Shown here in pieces: positions 49,810 through 60,306 of a stretch of 64,000 nt of DNA (positions are counted from its first letter, which is position 1; the number at the start of each line of letters is the position of its first letter). The stretch comes from Kribbella monticola (lineage in GTDB: Bacteria; Actinomycetota; Actinomycetes; Propionibacteriales; Kribbellaceae). The translations under genes were made by a program, and so were the position numbers. The notes under the pieces are model-generated. The model was not told where the DNA came from and did not search any database. It worked only from the letters and a program-made list of their open reading frames with translations. Location of the stretch: contig NZ_QFXK01000031.1 in NCBI RefSeq assembly GCF_003261635.1, positions 434,001-498,000 on the forward strand, in the 5' to 3' direction.

Positions 49810-50097
49810 ATGGCTGAGCTGCTGACGGACGACCAGATCGATGCCGCGATCCGCGACCACCTCCCGCAGTGGAAGGTCGACGAGAACGCGCTGGTCCGCA
49901 GCGTCAAGAAGGACAGCTTCCTGGACGGCATCCGGCTGGTCGCGACCGTCGCCCAGCTGGCCGAGTCGATGAACCACCACCCCGACATCGACATCCGCTA
50001 CACCACGATCACCTTCCGCGTCAGCAGCCACGACGCCGGCGGCATCACCGACGACGACCTCGTCCTAGCCCGCCACATCGACACCGCCGCCGGCTGA
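49810..50097 (+). CDS. Pterin-4a-carbinolamine dehydratase
   Basis: A 95-residue PCD/DCoH-fold enzyme that dehydrates 4a-hydroxytetrahydropterin, recycling tetrahydrobiopterin-like cofactors. The active-site HHPDIDIRY (two adjacent His plus Asp) is intact, with FLDGIRLVATVAQLAESMN before and GGITDDDLVLARHID after. ATG 49810 is used over an in-frame GTG two codons upstream. No pterin-dependent hydroxylase is nearby. Many actinobacteria carry this gene alone. Confidence 0.93.
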   Translation: MAELLTDDQIDAAIRDHLPQWKVDENALVRSVKKDSFLDGIRLVATVAQLAESMNHHPDIDIRYTTITFRVSSHDAGGITDDDLVLARHIDTAAG

Positions 50098-54007: not shown

Positions 54008-56710
54008 CTACGGATTCCCGGGGCCGAGCTGCCTGGCCAATTCCGTTCGCGAGTGGATGCCGAGCTTCGCGTAGACCTTGCGCAGGTGGTACTCGACCGT
54101 CTTCGGGCTGAGGAACAACCTCGCCGCCGCGGACCGGATACTCTCGCCGTCCACCAGCAGCATCGCGATCTGGCGTTCCTGCGGGGTGAGCTGGTCCGCG
54201 GTCGACGGCTCGCGGCGGCGGGCGGTCTCGCCGGTCGCCTTCAGTTCGGCCGCGGCCAGATCGGCCCAGCCCGGCGCACCCAGCCGATCGAAGTCACTGA
54301 CCGCCAGCCGAAGTTGGGCACGCGCATCGACTCTCCGCCGGGCCCGCCGCAGCCAACCGCCGTAGGCGAGCCTGGTCCGCGCCGTCTCGAACACGTCGAG
54401 CGTCCGCTGATGCCAACCGAGCGCCTCTTCGAAGAACCGCTCGTCCTCCTCGACCAGACCACGAGCCCGCGCCGACCGGCCCAGCGCCCACGGCTGCCCC
54501 TTGCCCTCGGCCAGTACGGCGAACTCGCGCGCGACGGCGACCGCGTCCTCCGTCCGGCCGAGCCGCAGATAGACTTCGACCATCTCCGGCGCGGGCGACA
54601 GATCGGGGTCCAGCAACCCCAGCGAATCAAGCACTTCCGCCAGCTGCTCGTACGACGCGAGGGCACCGGCCGGATTGCCCTGGCCGAGCTCGAGATCGCC
54701 CAGCGCGAACAACGCCCAGGCCCGGCCGATATGGATCTGCCGTTCGGTGCAGATCCCGATCGCTTCGGTCGCCAGCGAGCGGCACTCCTCGGCCCGGCCG
54801 CGATGCGCGGACAGCCACGCCTGCCCGGCCAGGCAGATCGCCAACTCGGTGGTCTGCCCGGTCTCGCGGGACAGCCTGATCCCCTCGTCGTACGCCGCGG
54901 CCGCATCCGCCCAGCGGTCGGTCGTCGCCTCATCACGGGCGAGGTGCATCAACAGGGCGGGCAGCGTCCCGACCGCGACCTGGTCCCGCCGCTCACGCAT
55001 CGCCTGCTCGAGCAACGCACGACCCGTTCCGGCTTCGCGCAGGAAGAGCGGCGCGAGCGTCATCCAGATCTGCCGGCGCCGATCGCGATCCAGGGCGGCG
55101 GACGGTTCCAGCCTGATGGCTTCCCGGATCTGCTCGGTCCCGGGCCGCCCGGCCAGAATCTTGGCGCTGCCGCTGGCCAGCAGCCCGAGAATCCGGACAC
55201 CCGGCCGATCAGTTGCCTCCAGCAATCGATCGATGCCGTCGGCGGCCTGCAGCGCGCCGGCCGCGTCGCCCAGCCGGAAGCAGGCGTTGACCGCATCGCT
55301 CAGCAGTCCGACGGCGGCCTCCGGATCGGTCGTCTCGTCCGCCGCGGCAAGCAGGATGTCGCGCGCCCGGGCAGGCGATCCGCACTTCACCGCGATGTCG
55401 GCACGCAACTCGTGCGCCCAGGTCGTGGTCGCCGCCGGCGGCTCGAACGCCAGCGCCTCACCGAGCAGGCTGTCGCCCCGGTCCGGCATCCCCGCGAACC
55501 AGGCCGCCTGCCCGGCAGCGACCAGTCGAGCCGCGCGTTCCTGGGCGTGTTCGGTCAATCTGGCCGCCCGTTCAAAGGCAGTCGCGGCGACCGCGTGTGC
55601 ACCGCGCTCAGCTGCATGATCGCCCGCGAGCTGGAGTGCCGCGGCGACCTCGTCGCTCTCCCCGAGCACAGTCTCCGAGAGATGCCAGGCCCGCCGGTCG
55701 GCTTCGTGCGGCCCCAAGATCGCGGCCACCGCTTGATGCACCGTACGCCGTTGCGCCGGCTCCGCGCTCGCATAGATCGCCGACCTGACCAGGGGATGCC
55801 GGAACTCGACCCGGCCGTCTCCGATCACCACGAGGGTTGCCTGCTCCGCCTCTGCCAACGCGGCCACGTCGACACCGAGCTCGTCGCAGGCCCTCGCGAT
55901 CACGCCCAGTTCGCCGTCCTCCACGGAGGCCACGAGCAACGCCGTACGGGCAGCGGGACTGAGCCGGGATGCCCTTACAGCAAAGGCGTCCGCCAACAAG
56001 GCCGGGACCAGAATCGGCCGGCCGGGCGGCAGCCGGTGCAACTGTTCCGGATCGTTCGCCAGTTCCAGCAACGCCAAGGGATTGCCCGCGACGCGACGAT
56101 GCAACTGGGCCACGAGATCGACCGGCAGTCCGCCGATAATGCGCTGAGCGGCTGGGAGATCGATGCCGGTGAGTTCGAGCCTGGGCAGATCCGCATCGGC
56201 CAGCGGGTGCGGTTCGCCGGCACGCGCGGCGACCAGCAGGACGATCGGGTCCGCGAGCAACCGGCGGGCGGCGAACAGCAGCGCCTCGGCGGACGGCCGG
56301 TCGAGCAGCTGCGCGTCGTCGACGAGGATCGCGACCGGCGCGGATTCGGCGTACCGGCAGATCAGGCTCAAGGTGGCGGCGCCGACCGCGAACCTGTCGG
56401 CCGCGGCGCCGGGGCTGAGCGCGAGGGCCGCCGCCAGCGCATCCCGTTGTGGTGCAGGGATGTGAGCGAGTTCGCCGAGCGCCGGCCGGAGTAGCTGGAG
56501 CAGGCCGCCGAACGGGATCTCGCGTTCGGCCTCGGTACCGCGGGCCCGGAGTACGCGGAGGCCGTCGGCGAGTGTCACCGCTTCGGCCATCAACGCCGAC
56601 TTCCCGATCCCCGGCTCCCCGGTGATCAGCAGCACTCCACTGGTGCCGACCCGCGCCCCCGCGACCAGCCGCTCGATCACCCGCCGTTCGGTCTCCCGCC
56701 CGATCAGCAT
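54008..56710 (-). CDS. Large ATP-binding LuxR-family (LAL) transcriptional regulator
   Basis: A 900-residue LAL/MalT-like regulator. The N-terminal AAA/STAND ATPase has P-loop GEPGIGKSALMAEA (about 31-44), Walker B VAILVDDAQLLDRPS, and the sensor-like RLSPAARTALLVASV. The central ~450 residues are TPR-like helices (ALASYEQLAEVLDSLG, RTEDAVAVAREFAVLAEG). The C-terminus is a LuxR HTH (LTPQERQIAMLLVDGESIRSAAARLFLSPKTVEYHLRKV). ATG 56710 is chosen because LIGRETE, the usual LAL start, follows it; GTG 56725 is also in frame. It is divergent from the methyltransferase and hydrolase-glycosyltransferase genes, the likely targets. Confidence 0.93.
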   Translation of the reverse strand: MLIGRETERRVIERLVAGARVGTSGVLLITGEPGIGKSALMAEAVTLADGLRVLRARGTEAEREIPFGGLLQLLRPALGELAHIPAPQRDALAAALALSPGAAADRFAVGAATLSLICRYAESAPVAILVDDAQLLDRPSAEALLFAARRLLADPIVLLVAARAGEPHPLADADLPRLELTGIDLPAAQRIIGGLPVDLVAQLHRRVAGNPLALLELANDPEQLHRLPPGRPILVPALLADAFAVRASRLSPAARTALLVASVEDGELGVIARACDELGVDVAALAEAEQATLVVIGDGRVEFRHPLVRSAIYASAEPAQRRTVHQAVAAILGPHEADRRAWHLSETVLGESDEVAAALQLAGDHAAERGAHAVAATAFERAARLTEHAQERAARLVAAGQAAWFAGMPDRGDSLLGEALAFEPPAATTTWAHELRADIAVKCGSPARARDILLAAADETTDPEAAVGLLSDAVNACFRLGDAAGALQAADGIDRLLEATDRPGVRILGLLASGSAKILAGRPGTEQIREAIRLEPSAALDRDRRRQIWMTLAPLFLREAGTGRALLEQAMRERRDQVAVGTLPALLMHLARDEATTDRWADAAAAYDEGIRLSRETGQTTELAICLAGQAWLSAHRGRAEECRSLATEAIGICTERQIHIGRAWALFALGDLELGQGNPAGALASYEQLAEVLDSLGLLDPDLSPAPEMVEVYLRLGRTEDAVAVAREFAVLAEGKGQPWALGRSARARGLVEEDERFFEEALGWHQRTLDVFETARTRLAYGGWLRRARRRVDARAQLRLAVSDFDRLGAPGWADLAAAELKATGETARRREPSTADQLTPQERQIAMLLVDGESIRSAAARLFLSPKTVEYHLRKVYAKLGIHSRTELARQLGPGNP

Positions 56711-56835
56711 CCCCGCAGTCTGCACGCCACTCCCCCGTCGCACCAGCCCCCGGGACTAGGTGGGTCACCTGATGCGACTGGGGGCCGGGCGCTTCTACGG
56801 TCGAGCGCAATGAGTCCCAGGGAGGGGAATCGACA

Positions 56836-57897
56836 ATGACCACGGTCGAACAACAGATCGACGGCGACAAGTTGATGGCGTTCGTGTTCCGCGCGGTGGA
56901 CGAGGTGGGGGCGACGCTCAACGCGGGCCTGGTGGTGATGGGCGACAAGCTCGGCTACTACCGCGCGCTCGCGGGCGCCGGTCCGCTGACACCGGCAGAG
57001 CTGGCCGAGCGCACACAGACCAGCGAGCACTACACCCGCGAGTGGCTGAACGCGCAGGCCGCGGGTGGTTTCGTCGAGTACGACGACGGCCGGTACGTCC
57101 TGCCGCCCGAGCACGCGATCGCACTCACCGACGAGAGCAGCCCGGCGTTCCTGCCCGGCTTCTTCCAGATCGCGCTCGGCACCGTCCACAACACCACGCA
57201 GACGATCGACGCCGCTCGCAGCGGTGCCGGCATCGGCTGGCACGAGCAGGACACCGATGTTCACGACGGTTGCGAGCGCTTCTTCCGGCCCGGCTACAAC
57301 GCGAATCTGCTGACCAGTTGGCTGCCTGCGTTGACCGACGTCGTCGGCAAACTCGACCGCGGCGCCAAGGTGGCCGACATCGGCTGCGGTCACGGCGCCT
57401 CGACGATCCTGATGGCGAAGGCGTTTCCGCAGTCGACGTTCCTCGGCTTCGACTACCACCCGGCGTCGATCGAGGTCGCCCGGAAGCGCGCCGCCGAAGC
57501 CGGAGCCGACGTGACGTTCGAGGTGGCGCCGGCGACGGCGTACAGCGGGACCGGGTACGACCTGGTGACGACGTTCGACGCGTTGCACGACATGGGCGAC
57601 CCGGTCGGCGCCGCGCGCCGGGTCCGCGAGTCGCTCGCCGAGGACGGCACCTGGATGGTCGTCGAACCGATGGCCGGCGACCGCGTCGAGGACAACCTGA
57701 ACCCGGTCGGCCGCGCGTACTACGGCTTCTCCACGCTGCTCTGTACGCCGGGATCGCTGTCGCAGGATGTCGGCCTGGCGCTCGGCACTCAGGCCGGGCC
57801 GGCCAGGATCCGCGACGTCACCACGGCGGCCGGTTTCACCCGGTTCCGGGTCGCCGCCGAGACGCCGTTCAACCTGGTGTACGAAGTCCGCCCCTGA
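56836..57897 (+). CDS. SAM-dependent methyltransferase with N-terminal winged-helix domain
   Basis: A 353-residue class I methyltransferase. Residues ~25-95 form a winged-helix-like dimerisation domain (LGYYRALAGAGPLTPAELAERTQTSEHYTREWLNAQAAGGFVE). The SAM site is KVADIGCGHGASTILMAKAFP (motif I), then FDYHPASIEVARKRA and VTTFDALHDMGDPVGAARRV. The layout matches the Rv2258c-like family; the methyl acceptor is unknown. A GGGAGGGGA site precedes ATG 56836. It lies 26 bp before the fusion gene, in one operon divergent from the LAL regulator. Confidence 0.88.
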   Translation: MTTVEQQIDGDKLMAFVFRAVDEVGATLNAGLVVMGDKLGYYRALAGAGPLTPAELAERTQTSEHYTREWLNAQAAGGFVEYDDGRYVLPPEHAIALTDESSPAFLPGFFQIALGTVHNTTQTIDAARSGAGIGWHEQDTDVHDGCERFFRPGYNANLLTSWLPALTDVVGKLDRGAKVADIGCGHGASTILMAKAFPQSTFLGFDYHPASIEVARKRAAEAGADVTFEVAPATAYSGTGYDLVTTFDALHDMGDPVGAARRVRESLAEDGTWMVVEPMAGDRVEDNLNPVGRAYYGFSTLLCTPGSLSQDVGLALGTQAGPARIRDVTTAAGFTRFRVAAETPFNLVYEVRP

Positions 57898-57923: not shown

Positions 57924-60098
57924 ATGACTTCGAAGCCGCAACGCCCAGCGCGCCCGGCCGACCAGGAGGGGACGGTCGAGCGCGACGGGGTGACGATCGC
58001 CTACAAGGTCCACTCCGGCCTTCACGCGACAGCCGAGGATGCAACAAATGTTGCTGCAGCGGATGTTGCGGCAACAGATGTTGCAGCTCCGACGGTGGTG
58101 TTCTTGCCGACCTGGTCGATCGTGCCGTCGCGGATCTGGAAGGCGCAGGTGCCGTACCTGGCCAAGCACTTCCGGGTCGTGACGTTCGACGGCCGCGGGT
58201 CGGGCGAGTCGAGTGCACCCGCAGGCGCCGCGGCGTACGCGGACAGCGAGTTCGTCGCGGACACCCTCGCCGTACTGGCCGCCACGAGGACCGGCACCTG
58301 CGTTCTGGTGTCGCTCTCCCGTGGCGTGCCGTGGGCGTTGCAAGTCGCCCATCAACTCCCCGATCAGGTGCTCGGTGTTGTGTGCATCGGCTCGGCCGCC
58401 GGGCTCGTACCGGCACAGGAGGAACGCATCCGCTGGTCGTGGAACGAGCGGCACGACACAACCGACGGGTGGGCGAAGTACAACAAGCACTACTGGACAG
58501 AGGGCGGGTACGACGATTTCCTGCGCTTCTTCTTCGCGCAGATGTTCCCCGAACCGCACTCCACCAAGCAGATCGAGGACGCCGTCGGCTGGGGCCACGA
58601 GATCAGCCCCGAGCGGCTGGTCGACACCGAGGCGGCCCGCCAGGATCGCGTTCCCGGCGTACCGGCGATGTCCTGTCCGGTCCTGGTGGTGCACGGCTCC
58701 GACGACAAGATTCGCCCCCTGGCCGAAGGTGTCGCGCTGGCCGACCAGACGGGTGGTTCGCTGATCACCGTCGAAGGCGGCGGACACGCCCCGAACGCCC
58801 GCGACCCGGTGCTGGTGAACCGCCTGCTCAAGGACTTCGTTTCAGGTGTCACCCCACCACAACCGGTACGGCGTACGTTGGTGCGCGCCTCGAATCGCCC
58901 GAAGCGGGTGCTCTATCTGTCCTCGCCGATCGGCCTCGGCCACGCCCGCCGGGATCTCGCGATCGCGCGCGAACTGCGGATGCGGAATCCCGGACTCGAG
59001 ATCGACTGGCTCGCCCAGCACCCGGTCACGCGAGTCCTGGCCGATGCGGGCGAATCGGTGCACCCGGCATCGGCGTACCTGCTGAACGAGTCGAGCCACA
59101 TCGAGTTCGAGGCCGACGAGCACGACCTGCACGCGTTCCAGGCGATCCGGCGGATGGACGAGATCCTGGTCGCGAACTTCCTCACCTTCACCGATGTGGT
59201 CGACGACCGGCCCTACGACCTGGTGATCGGCGACGAGGCCTGGGACGTCGACTACTTCCTGCACGAGAACCCGGAGCTGAAGCGTTTCGCCTATGCCTGG
59301 CTGACGGACTTCGTCGGTTGGCTGCCGCTTCCTTCGGGCGGCCCTGCCGAAGCTGCGCTGACCGCGGACTACAACGCGGAGATGCTCGAGCAACGGGCCC
59401 GCTTCCGCCGGCTCCGTGATCGCTCCCTCTTCATCGGCGACCCGGACGACATCGTCGAGGACACCTTCGGTCCGGGGTTGCCGTCGATCCGGTCGTGGAC
59501 GGCGCAGAACTTCGACTTCACCGGGTACATCACCGGCTTCGACCCCGCGGAGACCGCCGACCGCACGGCTCTCCGTGCCCGGCTCGGCTACCCGCCCGAC
59601 GCCAAGCTCTGCCTGGTCACCGTCGGCGGCTCGGGTGTTGGAAAATCCTTGCTGCAAAGGGTTTTAGACGCTATCCCGGTCGCGCGGCGAGCCGTTCCCG
59701 GCCTGCACTTCGTCGTCGTCACCGGACCTCGCATCGACCCGTCGACGCTGCCTTCGATGCCCGGGGCAACCATTCACGGCTATCTGCCGAACCTTCACCA
59801 CCACCTGGCCGCCGCGGACGTCGCGATCACCCAGGGCGGCCTCACCACCTGCATGGAACTCACCGCCGCCCGGGTGCCCTTCATCTACGTCCCACTCCAG
59901 CACCACTTCGAGCAGACCTTCCACGTCCCTGCCCGGCTGAACCGCCACAACGCCGGCCACCTCGTGCCCTACTCGGCCTGCACTCCCACCACCCTCGCCG
60001 AAACCCTCGCCAAGCTGTTGATCACCGACGTCGACTACCTCCCCGTCCCCACCACCGCCGCCCAGACCGCCGCCGCCCTCCTCACGGACCTGCTCTGA
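57924..60098 (+). CDS. Fusion of an alpha/beta-hydrolase and a GT-B glycosyltransferase
   Basis: A 724-residue two-domain protein. Residues ~20-310 are an alpha/beta-hydrolase with nucleophile Ser132 (VSLSRG), acid in HGSDDK (Asp260/261) and His288 (GGGHAP). Residues ~327-724 are a GT-B/MGT-like glycosyltransferase: VLYLSSPIGLGHARRDLAIARELR, then VTVGGSGVGKSLLQRVLDA and GYLPNLHHHLAAADVAITQGGLTTCMELTAARVPFI, the nucleotide-sugar site. There is no stop or frameshift between domains. An in-frame GTG at codon 320 could start the second domain separately but has no clear ribosome-binding site. Residues 39-56 are an alanine/valine/aspartate repeat. Codon 581 is TTA. It might glycosylate a small molecule and cleave an ester; both are inference. 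Confidence 0.85.
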   Translation: MTSKPQRPARPADQEGTVERDGVTIAYKVHSGLHATAEDATNVAAADVAATDVAAPTVVFLPTWSIVPSRIWKAQVPYLAKHFRVVTFDGRGSGESSAPAGAAAYADSEFVADTLAVLAATRTGTCVLVSLSRGVPWALQVAHQLPDQVLGVVCIGSAAGLVPAQEERIRWSWNERHDTTDGWAKYNKHYWTEGGYDDFLRFFFAQMFPEPHSTKQIEDAVGWGHEISPERLVDTEAARQDRVPGVPAMSCPVLVVHGSDDKIRPLAEGVALADQTGGSLITVEGGGHAPNARDPVLVNRLLKDFVSGVTPPQPVRRTLVRASNRPKRVLYLSSPIGLGHARRDLAIARELRMRNPGLEIDWLAQHPVTRVLADAGESVHPASAYLLNESSHIEFEADEHDLHAFQAIRRMDEILVANFLTFTDVVDDRPYDLVIGDEAWDVDYFLHENPELKRFAYAWLTDFVGWLPLPSGGPAEAALTADYNAEMLEQRARFRRLRDRSLFIGDPDDIVEDTFGPGLPSIRSWTAQNFDFTGYITGFDPAETADRTALRARLGYPPDAKLCLVTVGGSGVGKSLLQRVLDAIPVARRAVPGLHFVVVTGPRIDPSTLPSMPGATIHGYLPNLHHHLAAADVAITQGGLTTCMELTAARVPFIYVPLQHHFEQTFHVPARLNRHNAGHLVPYSACTPTTLAETLAKLLITDVDYLPVPTTAAQTAAALLTDLL
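58041..58084. repeat. AT-richer repeat with two GCAACA-NA-TGTTGC dyads inside the fusion gene
   Basis: GCAACA-AA-TGTTGC (58041-58054) and GCAACA-GA-TGTTGC (58071-58084) are 30 bp apart, with GTTGC-G-GCAAC between them. The stretch codes residues 40-54 (repeats of N/D-V-A-A) using codons such as ACA, AAT, GTT and GCA that the surrounding gene avoids. Confidence 0.7.
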
Positions 60099-60148: not shown

Positions 60149-60253
60149 GGCGTACCGACGGACAGGAGGTGTCAGGCCGGTCACCTGAATACCACCCTCA
60201 AGCGGAGGCCGCCCGGGCATTTTCAGGCCGTACCTCCTGTCCGTCGGTACGCC
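60149..60253. repeat. 22-bp perfect inverted repeat flanking a 61-bp insert
   Basis: Arms 60149-60170 and 60232-60253 are exact reverse complements (core CGTACCGACGGACAGGAGGT). The 61-bp centre contains two CAGGCC words and the palindrome GCCCGGGC. It starts 51 bp after the fusion gene stop and ends 54 bp before the ArsR gene. It could be a very long terminator stem or a small non-autonomous mobile element; no target-site duplication was established. Confidence 0.8.
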
Positions 60254-60270: not shown

Positions 60271-60306
60271 TTGACAGGACACTTCACCAGATGGTGAAGT
60301 GTCCTG
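60271..60306 (+). promoter_or_regulatory. TTGACA and perfect operator palindrome of the arsR-type gene
   Basis: TTGACA at 60271-60276 is a consensus -35. CAGGACACTTCACCA (60275-60289), two bases, then TGGTGAAGTGTCCTG (60292-60306) is a perfect 15-bp-arm palindrome that abuts the GTG start at 60307. It is almost certainly the autorepressor operator. Confidence 0.75.

Follow-up and report, generated by a model that had tools for sequence, protein, structure and literature searches.

A single-gene fusion of an alpha/beta-hydrolase and a GT-B glycosyltransferase in Kribbella monticola: a conserved and possibly bifunctional actinobacterial enzyme

The genome of the soil bacterium Kribbella monticola contains a gene that seems to join a hydrolase to a glycosyltransferase, which raises the questions whether both are truly encoded as one protein, how widely such a protein occurs and on what it might act. 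We examined this gene within the window, i.e. the whole stretch of 64,000 nucleotides of DNA that was analysed (contig NZ_QFXK01000031.1, positions 434,001 to 498,000 of the forward strand). All positions given below are those of the window.

The gene occupies positions 57924..60098 (+). Its open frame, Pfam, an AlphaFold2 model and fold matches delineate an alpha/beta-hydrolase (approximately residues 14-310), a short linker and a GT-B glycosyltransferase (approximately residues 318-724). A preliminary description of this DNA had reported a single frame of 724 residues open from the ATG at 57924 to 60098, and translation confirms it with zero internal stops. The GC content at codon positions 1, 2 and 3 is 0.695, 0.479 and 0.855, respectively, a pattern as expected of a genuine high-GC gene. 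The same frame is open beyond this ATG, back to a GTG at 57042, and the extension overlaps the methyltransferase gene in a different frame. The two closest relatives (L093, L094) have N-terminal residues matching a start at 57924, and GAGGGGG is found 7 nt 5' of the ATG. AlphaFold2 yielded a confident two-domain model of the full fusion, with a mean pLDDT of 91.8 and a pTM of 0.92 across both domains. The fusion is the sole copy in its own genome, where the remaining matches have E values of 2.3e-7 or weaker. A stop or frameshift at the junction of the two halves, named in the preliminary description as a finding that would speak against the fusion, is absent. All 77 distinct frames compared, this one included, read through the junction, by which a sequencing or assembly error is ruled out.

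The hydrolase half (57924..58868, +) was assigned by alignment columns, a PDB profile match and fold matches. It scores 53.6 bits against the Pfam profile Abhydrolase_1 (cut-off 25.8) over residues 69-290 and thereby belongs to the superfamily. Est816 (5egn), which according to its PDB title degrades N-acyl homoserine lactones, is the best PDB profile match (E 3e-31), and the structure matches are esterases and lactonases with Z of about 31. The nucleophile Ser132 lies in V-S-L-S-R-G and is followed by Asp261 and His288. The triad had originally been given as Ser132, Asp260/261 and His288. Ser132, Asp261 and His288 hold, while position 260 varies and Asp261 is invariant in 56/56 aligned fusions. 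Among 85 hydrolase domains scoring at least 100 bits (lower-scoring ones such as L108 and L131 were excluded), all 85 retain Asp and His at the respective columns; 72 have Ser as nucleophile and 12 have Cys, while in one the nucleophile is lost at a contig end. At the first Gly of the GxSxG elbow the family varies, with S, T, G or A in most of the aligned fusions.

The glycosyltransferase half (58872..60095, +) is supported by conserved columns, Pfam and a fold match to OleI. Residues 564-700 belong to Glyco_tran_28_C (58.1 bits, cut-off 22), a profile that matches 49/49 members of the glycosyltransferase alignment A2 at E values up to 1e-3. The half contains a G-L-G-H340 loop and a Q-G-G-L-T-T...E645 / H661..Q664 motif, and G337-H340, G638-L640, T642, E645, H661 and Q664 are invariant in 56/56 aligned fusions. 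Modelled separately it reached a pLDDT of 93.9, and this model aligns end-to-end with OleI (Z 28.4, rmsd 3.7, 346 residues). CalG1 and UGT109A1 match it over the full length with Z 28.1 each and are thus tied with OleI; Foldseek matches and Z-scores, for both halves, denote common folds. Both Rossmann-like GT-B domains are present in the model: Glyco_tran_28_C lies above its cut-off, in agreement with the full C-domain claimed before, and the alignment to OleI adds the N-domain. With both Pfam scores above cut-off and the active-site residues kept, the claim of a hydrolase fused to a GT-B glycosyltransferase is borne out.

Naming the reactions is another matter. The fold alone does not fix that of the glycosyltransferase half, since non-hydrolysing UDP-GlcNAc 2-epimerases share it (Z about 24.8). 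Both halves score below the curated cut-off of every named NCBIfam enzyme family that they match. For the hydrolase half these include PcaDC (68.5 bits, cut-off 390), PcaD (60.3, cut-off 255.85), Mle (at most 33.6, cut-offs 564.5 to 585) and EstX (26.4, cut-off 600), and for the glycosyltransferase half MurG (35.3, cut-off 250.25). Because these cut-offs are missed by far, family membership fixes the reaction of neither half. Judged by its sequence, the glycosyltransferase half is a distinct family without a member inside the range of the NCBIfam cut-offs.

The preliminary description had proposed counting the genomes with the same fusion, and had regarded homologues that are always separate genes as an argument against it. 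Such homologues are not the rule. We collected and compared 77 distinct fused frames, our own included, from Actinomycetota and one Chloroflexota metagenome-assembled genome (MAG); three are incomplete, two of them cut by contig ends (L029, L107) and one broken in the glycosyltransferase half (L129). The set from named genomes comprises 26 loci, all with hydrolase and glycosyltransferase in one frame, among them the cut L029 and a locus with two fusions (L028). Their hosts are Kribbella, Cellulomonas, Nocardioides, Knoellia, Segeticoccus, Phycicoccus, actinobacterial MAGs and one Ktedonobacterales (Chloroflexota) MAG. In the order sample the glycosyltransferase half is matched at E <=1e-30 in 39 of 293 genomes, the next best match having an E value of 2.7e-16; four of the 39 copies appear broken or partial (G454, G497, G643, G674). 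In the phylum sample, for which two candidates per genome were scored, a single match spans residue 57 or earlier to residue 721 or later in 22 of 396 genomes, own included. Only one of 72,556 plasmid records matches, that of Deinococcus sp. QL22 (L191, NZ_CP097150.1), with 54.6% identity. This copy has a TetR gene upstream, is annotated as two genes and has its frame broken inside the glycosyltransferase half; its occurrence is a sign of transfer between phyla. From the conservation of its sequence, the fusion is evidently no accident.

Upstream of the fusion and separated from it by 26 bp lies a gene for a SAM methyltransferase of 353 aa (56836..57897, +), identified by Methyltransf_31 and, for its Rv2258c-type winged helix, by HTH_65 (both Pfam). 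A further 92 bp separate the start of this gene from a divergent gene (54008..56743, -) for an LAL-type regulator of 911 aa with an AAA_16 ATPase and a LuxR/GerE helix-turn-helix (Pfam). Both neighbours are thus present at this locus as originally stated. Elsewhere their presence was counted from direct profile hits in those 74 of the 77 fusions for which 1.3 kb or more of upstream sequence was available. A same-strand methyltransferase directly precedes 47 of these 74, and 45 of the 47 also have the divergent LAL, the two other loci ending early. The methyltransferase is divergent in 5/74, a TetR gene is found in 12/74 (once in the opposite orientation) and 10/74 have neither methyltransferase nor TetR. 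The divergent, more distant methyltransferase accompanies Cys-type fusions in five genomes of the taxonomic order (L156, L158, L160, L161 and L162), and the glycosyltransferases of these five group as a single clade (support 100). Some of the ten fusions with neither gene have other recurrent neighbours, namely a BTAD-type regulator, a carboxymuconolactone decarboxylase-like protein and OsmC in L111, L112, L119 and, in part, L028. The compact three-gene unit that had been proposed therefore stands for the 45 loci with methyltransferase and LAL. As a unit that always travels together it is ruled out by the 12 TetR-linked fusions and by 15 Kribbella genomes described below, in which LAL and methyltransferase occur without the fusion. 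PADLOC anti-phage profiles (E <=1e-3) gave no family for the fusion, by which a phage-defence gene was ruled out; LAL and methyltransferase match PADLOC through their methyltransferase and DNA-binding parts only. Between positions 50000 and 64000, none of 4227 Rfam families of RNA elements was found at the gathering score.

The promoter region shared by LAL and methyltransferase contains a conserved box, AGGTGGGTCACCTGATGCGA (56758..56777, +), a candidate operator recognised by its invariant bases and its matches at other loci. Twelve of its bases are invariant in 26/26 aligned Kribbella promoters (29 were extracted and three dropped for length). A related box is found in 44 of the 47 LAL/methyltransferase loci, with a best match of at least 13 of 17 fixed positions compared with at most 13 in shuffles; the controls were single-base shuffles and the loci scored are related. 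It was missed in L022, L103 and L148 (L022 and L148 being the same contig), where the LAL match overran the true start and gave a long search region; with a wider region it was recovered in L103 and absent in L022/L148. Our genome has one exact site and one with two mismatches. The box is kept in fusion-less Kribbella genomes too.

Within Kribbella the site exists in three states. LAL, methyltransferase and fusion are all present in 14 of 38 genomes (our own among them), at a site delimited by dedA on one side and ArsR-AHSA1 on the other, with the usual flanks in 13 of the 14 (G426 differs). The fusion is missing in 24/38 and is therefore an accessory gene. Fifteen of these 24 (L163-L177) keep both LAL and methyltransferase beside dedA, which makes the two independent of the fusion, and in 13 of the 15 loci ArsR was called directly 3' of the methyltransferase. 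Five of the nine remaining genomes were retrieved (L178-L182), and in all five dedA, ArsR and AHSA1 are found with no LAL, methyltransferase or fusion between them. Methyltransferase orthologues with at least 79% identity occur in 29/38 genomes, and on the methyltransferase tree the presence of the fusion requires two changes. Loss inside Kribbella is the simpler reading, because Cellulomonas and Nocardioides possess the same trio of LAL, methyltransferase and fusion. The genomes with three, two or none of the genes are natural deletion strains that can be compared.

Two further elements were observed at this site. A palindromic repeat with 21-bp inverted ends lies between the stop of the fusion and the ArsR gene (60150-60252). 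Its half-sites (up to two mismatches) occur 27 times in the own genome and 0 times in the reversed control, several of them paired about 83 bp apart, and it folds at -70.3 kcal/mol (z -7.0); it resembles a MITE or REP-like element. Immediately 5' of the ArsR gene, the palindrome CACTTCACCAGATGGTGAAGTG is found at 60280-60301, and a matching palindrome lies between methyltransferase and ArsR in 13 fusion-less Kribbella loci. We regard it as a likely ArsR operator, predicted from its sequence.

Not all relatives are fused. A second copy in Kribbella G409 (L104) and the copy of G343 (L105) consist of separate genes, glycosyltransferase first and hydrolase thereafter. In L143 (G556) the hydrolase precedes the glycosyltransferase in a different frame, which may be a true split or a frameshift. 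The distant L108 (G175) has overlapping hydrolase and glycosyltransferase genes in the order of the fusion; its hydrolase is without the standard triad, in whose place a weak alignment shows C, N and Y. Unfused halves thus mostly adjoin each other (L104, L105, L108, L143). In the stretches fetched, no hydrolase was found with the distant glycosyltransferase of L127 and no glycosyltransferase with the distant hydrolase of L132; L130 stops at a contig border. Additional hydrolases stand directly upstream of the fusions in L106 and L107, preceded in both by TetR, and L028 has two fusions in tandem. In L158 a 204-residue insert (L158:8559-9167) separates a Cys hydrolase from the glycosyltransferase. 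A stretch of 34 residues therein is 41% identical to the hydrolase start (BLAST E 3.7e-4 for one sequence with composition statistics off). The profile score of the insert is 7.9 bits as against 7.2 for the best of 50 shuffles, and Pfam gives only a sub-threshold match to another family. It could be the leftover of a second hydrolase.

Ser- and Cys-type hydrolases are found side by side in several places. The two tandem fusions of L028 include both types, L106 has a separate Ser hydrolase and then a Cys fusion, the contig-end-cut L107 has two separate Ser hydrolases and then a Cys fusion, and genome G409 has a Ser fusion (L009) as well as the Cys split pair L104. By parsimony, 2 changes suffice to explain the Ser/Cys character on the hydrolase tree (74 rows), whereas the glycosyltransferase tree (69 rows) requires 6, of which well supported branches force at least 3. 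Eleven near-identical or cut Cellulomonas rows were left out of both trees, and L125, L148, L127, L130 and L107 also of the glycosyltransferase tree. A single clade of the Cys-linked glycosyltransferases is rejected, its log-likelihood being 213 lower (p-AU 1.0e-5 for 11 rows against 56 on quick trees). Because of the 2 changes against 6 and the rejection of this clade, repeated exchange of the hydrolase against a conserved glycosyltransferase would be the simplest reading of these sequences. The tandem hydrolases of L106 and L107, the tandem fusions of L028 and the GT-first split pairs L104 and L105 might then represent stages of such an exchange. Alternatively, Ser may have turned into Cys repeatedly within fixed fusions, or the glycosyltransferase tree may be wrong, so that the signal is false. 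We consider this rather improbable. The trees are admittedly quick ones with many weak branches, made from single genes with diverged sequences, several of them from MAGs. Moreover, the Cys of L107, the least certain of its type and part of an altered stretch, stood apart from the other Cys types on the first hydrolase tree, for which reason a second origin of Cys is likely there. However, on a hydrolase tree computed without 13 columns surrounding the nucleophile the Cys types are still grouped and 2 changes still suffice. The glycosyltransferases of L106 and L113 pair as sisters with support 100, but their fused hydrolases are unlike, Cys in L106 and Ser in L113, and the separate Ser hydrolase of L106 is 73% identical to the fused hydrolase of L113. 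Tentatively, we see a modular 'open-and-cap' family as possible, in which a conserved glycosyltransferase has repeatedly been re-joined to hydrolases of Ser and Cys type, so that the linkage cut would change and the capping would stay.

As to function, the fold matches liken the hydrolase half to esterases and lactonases and the glycosyltransferase half to macrolide, calicheamicin and UGT-type transferases. That the joined gene was kept in many related bacteria suggests a shared small-molecule substrate. Our preferred reading, which we hold with reservation, is that of a conserved, cytosolic-looking bifunctional enzyme whose hydrolase and natural-product-type GT-B glycosyltransferase would act consecutively on one small molecule. 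The hydrolase would open an ester or lactone, or in the Cys type possibly transfer an acyl group. Cys takes the place of Ser in dienelactone hydrolase and PHA synthase (PMC11878206), and the Cys type could for that reason be a lactonase or an acyltransferase. The glycosyltransferase would then cap the hydroxyl or carboxyl set free and so prevent the ring from closing again; a bioactive compound might thereby be inactivated or tailored. For fusions of the LAL class, the methyltransferase could add a second tailoring step, and LAL here or TetR elsewhere might switch on the gene in response to the compound. With the hydrolase exchanged and the glycosyltransferase retained, the enzyme could be adapted to different linkages. 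The triad-less hydrolase of L108 and the partnerless halves of L127 and L132 count against consecutive action.

The same pair of activities might instead serve biosynthesis. During synthesis of a metabolite the hydrolase would remove an acyl protecting group (or, in the Cys type, act as acyltransferase) and the glycosyltransferase would add a sugar. This is the most serious alternative to inactivation, though in our view an unlikely one. Natural-product transferases are nearest to the glycosyltransferase fold and methyltransferase and LAL are conserved in 45/74 loci; yet the recurrent neighbour clusters that were examined showed no core biosynthetic gene, TetR is in 12/74 the only neighbour among those tested for, and the 15 Kribbella genomes mentioned above have LAL and methyltransferase with no fusion. 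Around the fusion genes there is no obvious biosynthetic cluster, and the neighbours vary by lineage. The hydrolase half could also be mainly a sensor or receptor controlling the glycosyltransferase, in the manner of plant D14/KAI2 or bacterial RsbQ. D14, DAD2, KAI2-like proteins and RsbQ are indeed among its fold matches (Z 29 to 30) and regulators of small-molecule type adjoin the fusion, but esterases, perhydrolases and lactonases match equally or slightly better (Z differences below 1 counting as equal) and 84/84 readable domains have Ser or Cys as nucleophile, which leaves this role improbable. Least probable of all, and by our estimate very unlikely, is a macrolide resistance protein made of a macrolide esterase and a macrolide glycosyltransferase. 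In its favour, the glycosyltransferase half has OleI as its first fold match, in a tie with others, and in NCBIfam the hydrolase half weakly matches macrolide esterases and the glycosyltransferase half macrolide transferases. The scores are far from the cut-offs, namely 38.2 against 420 bits for the 16-membered macrolide esterase (NF052610), 30.7 against 450 for EstT, 37.5 against 260 for MGT (TIGR01426) and 19.3 against 700 for OleI, which rules out macrolide resistance by family membership; moreover, higher scores are reached with the PcaD-type lactonase models (68.5 and 60.3 bits), likewise far under cut-off.

If the two halves share a substrate, as the preferred reading of consecutive action has it, a single compact gene supplies two ready-made reactions in an order that the fusion fixes, and the Ser, Cys, split and tandem forms provide a natural series on swapping one catalytic half and keeping the other. 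Plain annotations as 'alpha/beta hydrolase' may conceal a second enzyme. In the literature searched, which has most subscription journals outside it, we found no description of the hydrolase-glycosyltransferase fusion or of the hydrolase exchange, and the parts available of PMC12704417, PMC4921024, PMC10784701 and PMC11878206 do not describe the fusion. Each half is of known kind, and bifunctional fusion enzymes are known as a kind.

Compared with known systems, the hydrolase half resembles Est816 (5egn), the P. fluorescens esterase 1va4 and PcaD in fold, Ser-Asp-His order and position of the nucleophile. These entries are single-domain and without glycosyltransferase, and in the fusion family the elbow's first Gly is not conserved. 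The Gram-positive macrolide esterases of PMC12704417 are likewise soluble alpha/beta-hydrolases with Ser-Asp-His, but are described there as stand-alone enzymes, while the hydrolase here is fused to a glycosyltransferase and scores far below the NCBIfam cut-offs. As in dienelactone hydrolase and PHA synthase, Cys replaces Ser with Asp and His kept in 12/85 domains; unlike in those enzymes, the Cys type here is joined to a glycosyltransferase and alternates with the Ser type. The LipJ-type hydrolase-adenylate cyclase, going by the name of its NCBIfam model, shares an N-terminal alpha/beta-hydrolase in a two-domain actinobacterial protein, but its partner is a cyclase instead of a glycosyltransferase, and the LipJ model gives 26.8 bits against a cut-off of 800. 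The glycosyltransferase half has the GT-B fold, the G-x-G-H loop and the C-terminal donor motif in common with OleI (2iya), CalG1 (3oth), UGT109A1 (7vlb) and the MurG-type Glyco_tran_28 proteins; OleI, CalG1 and UGT109A1 are at most 17-20% identical to it in sequence, and it differs from them in being fused to a hydrolase.
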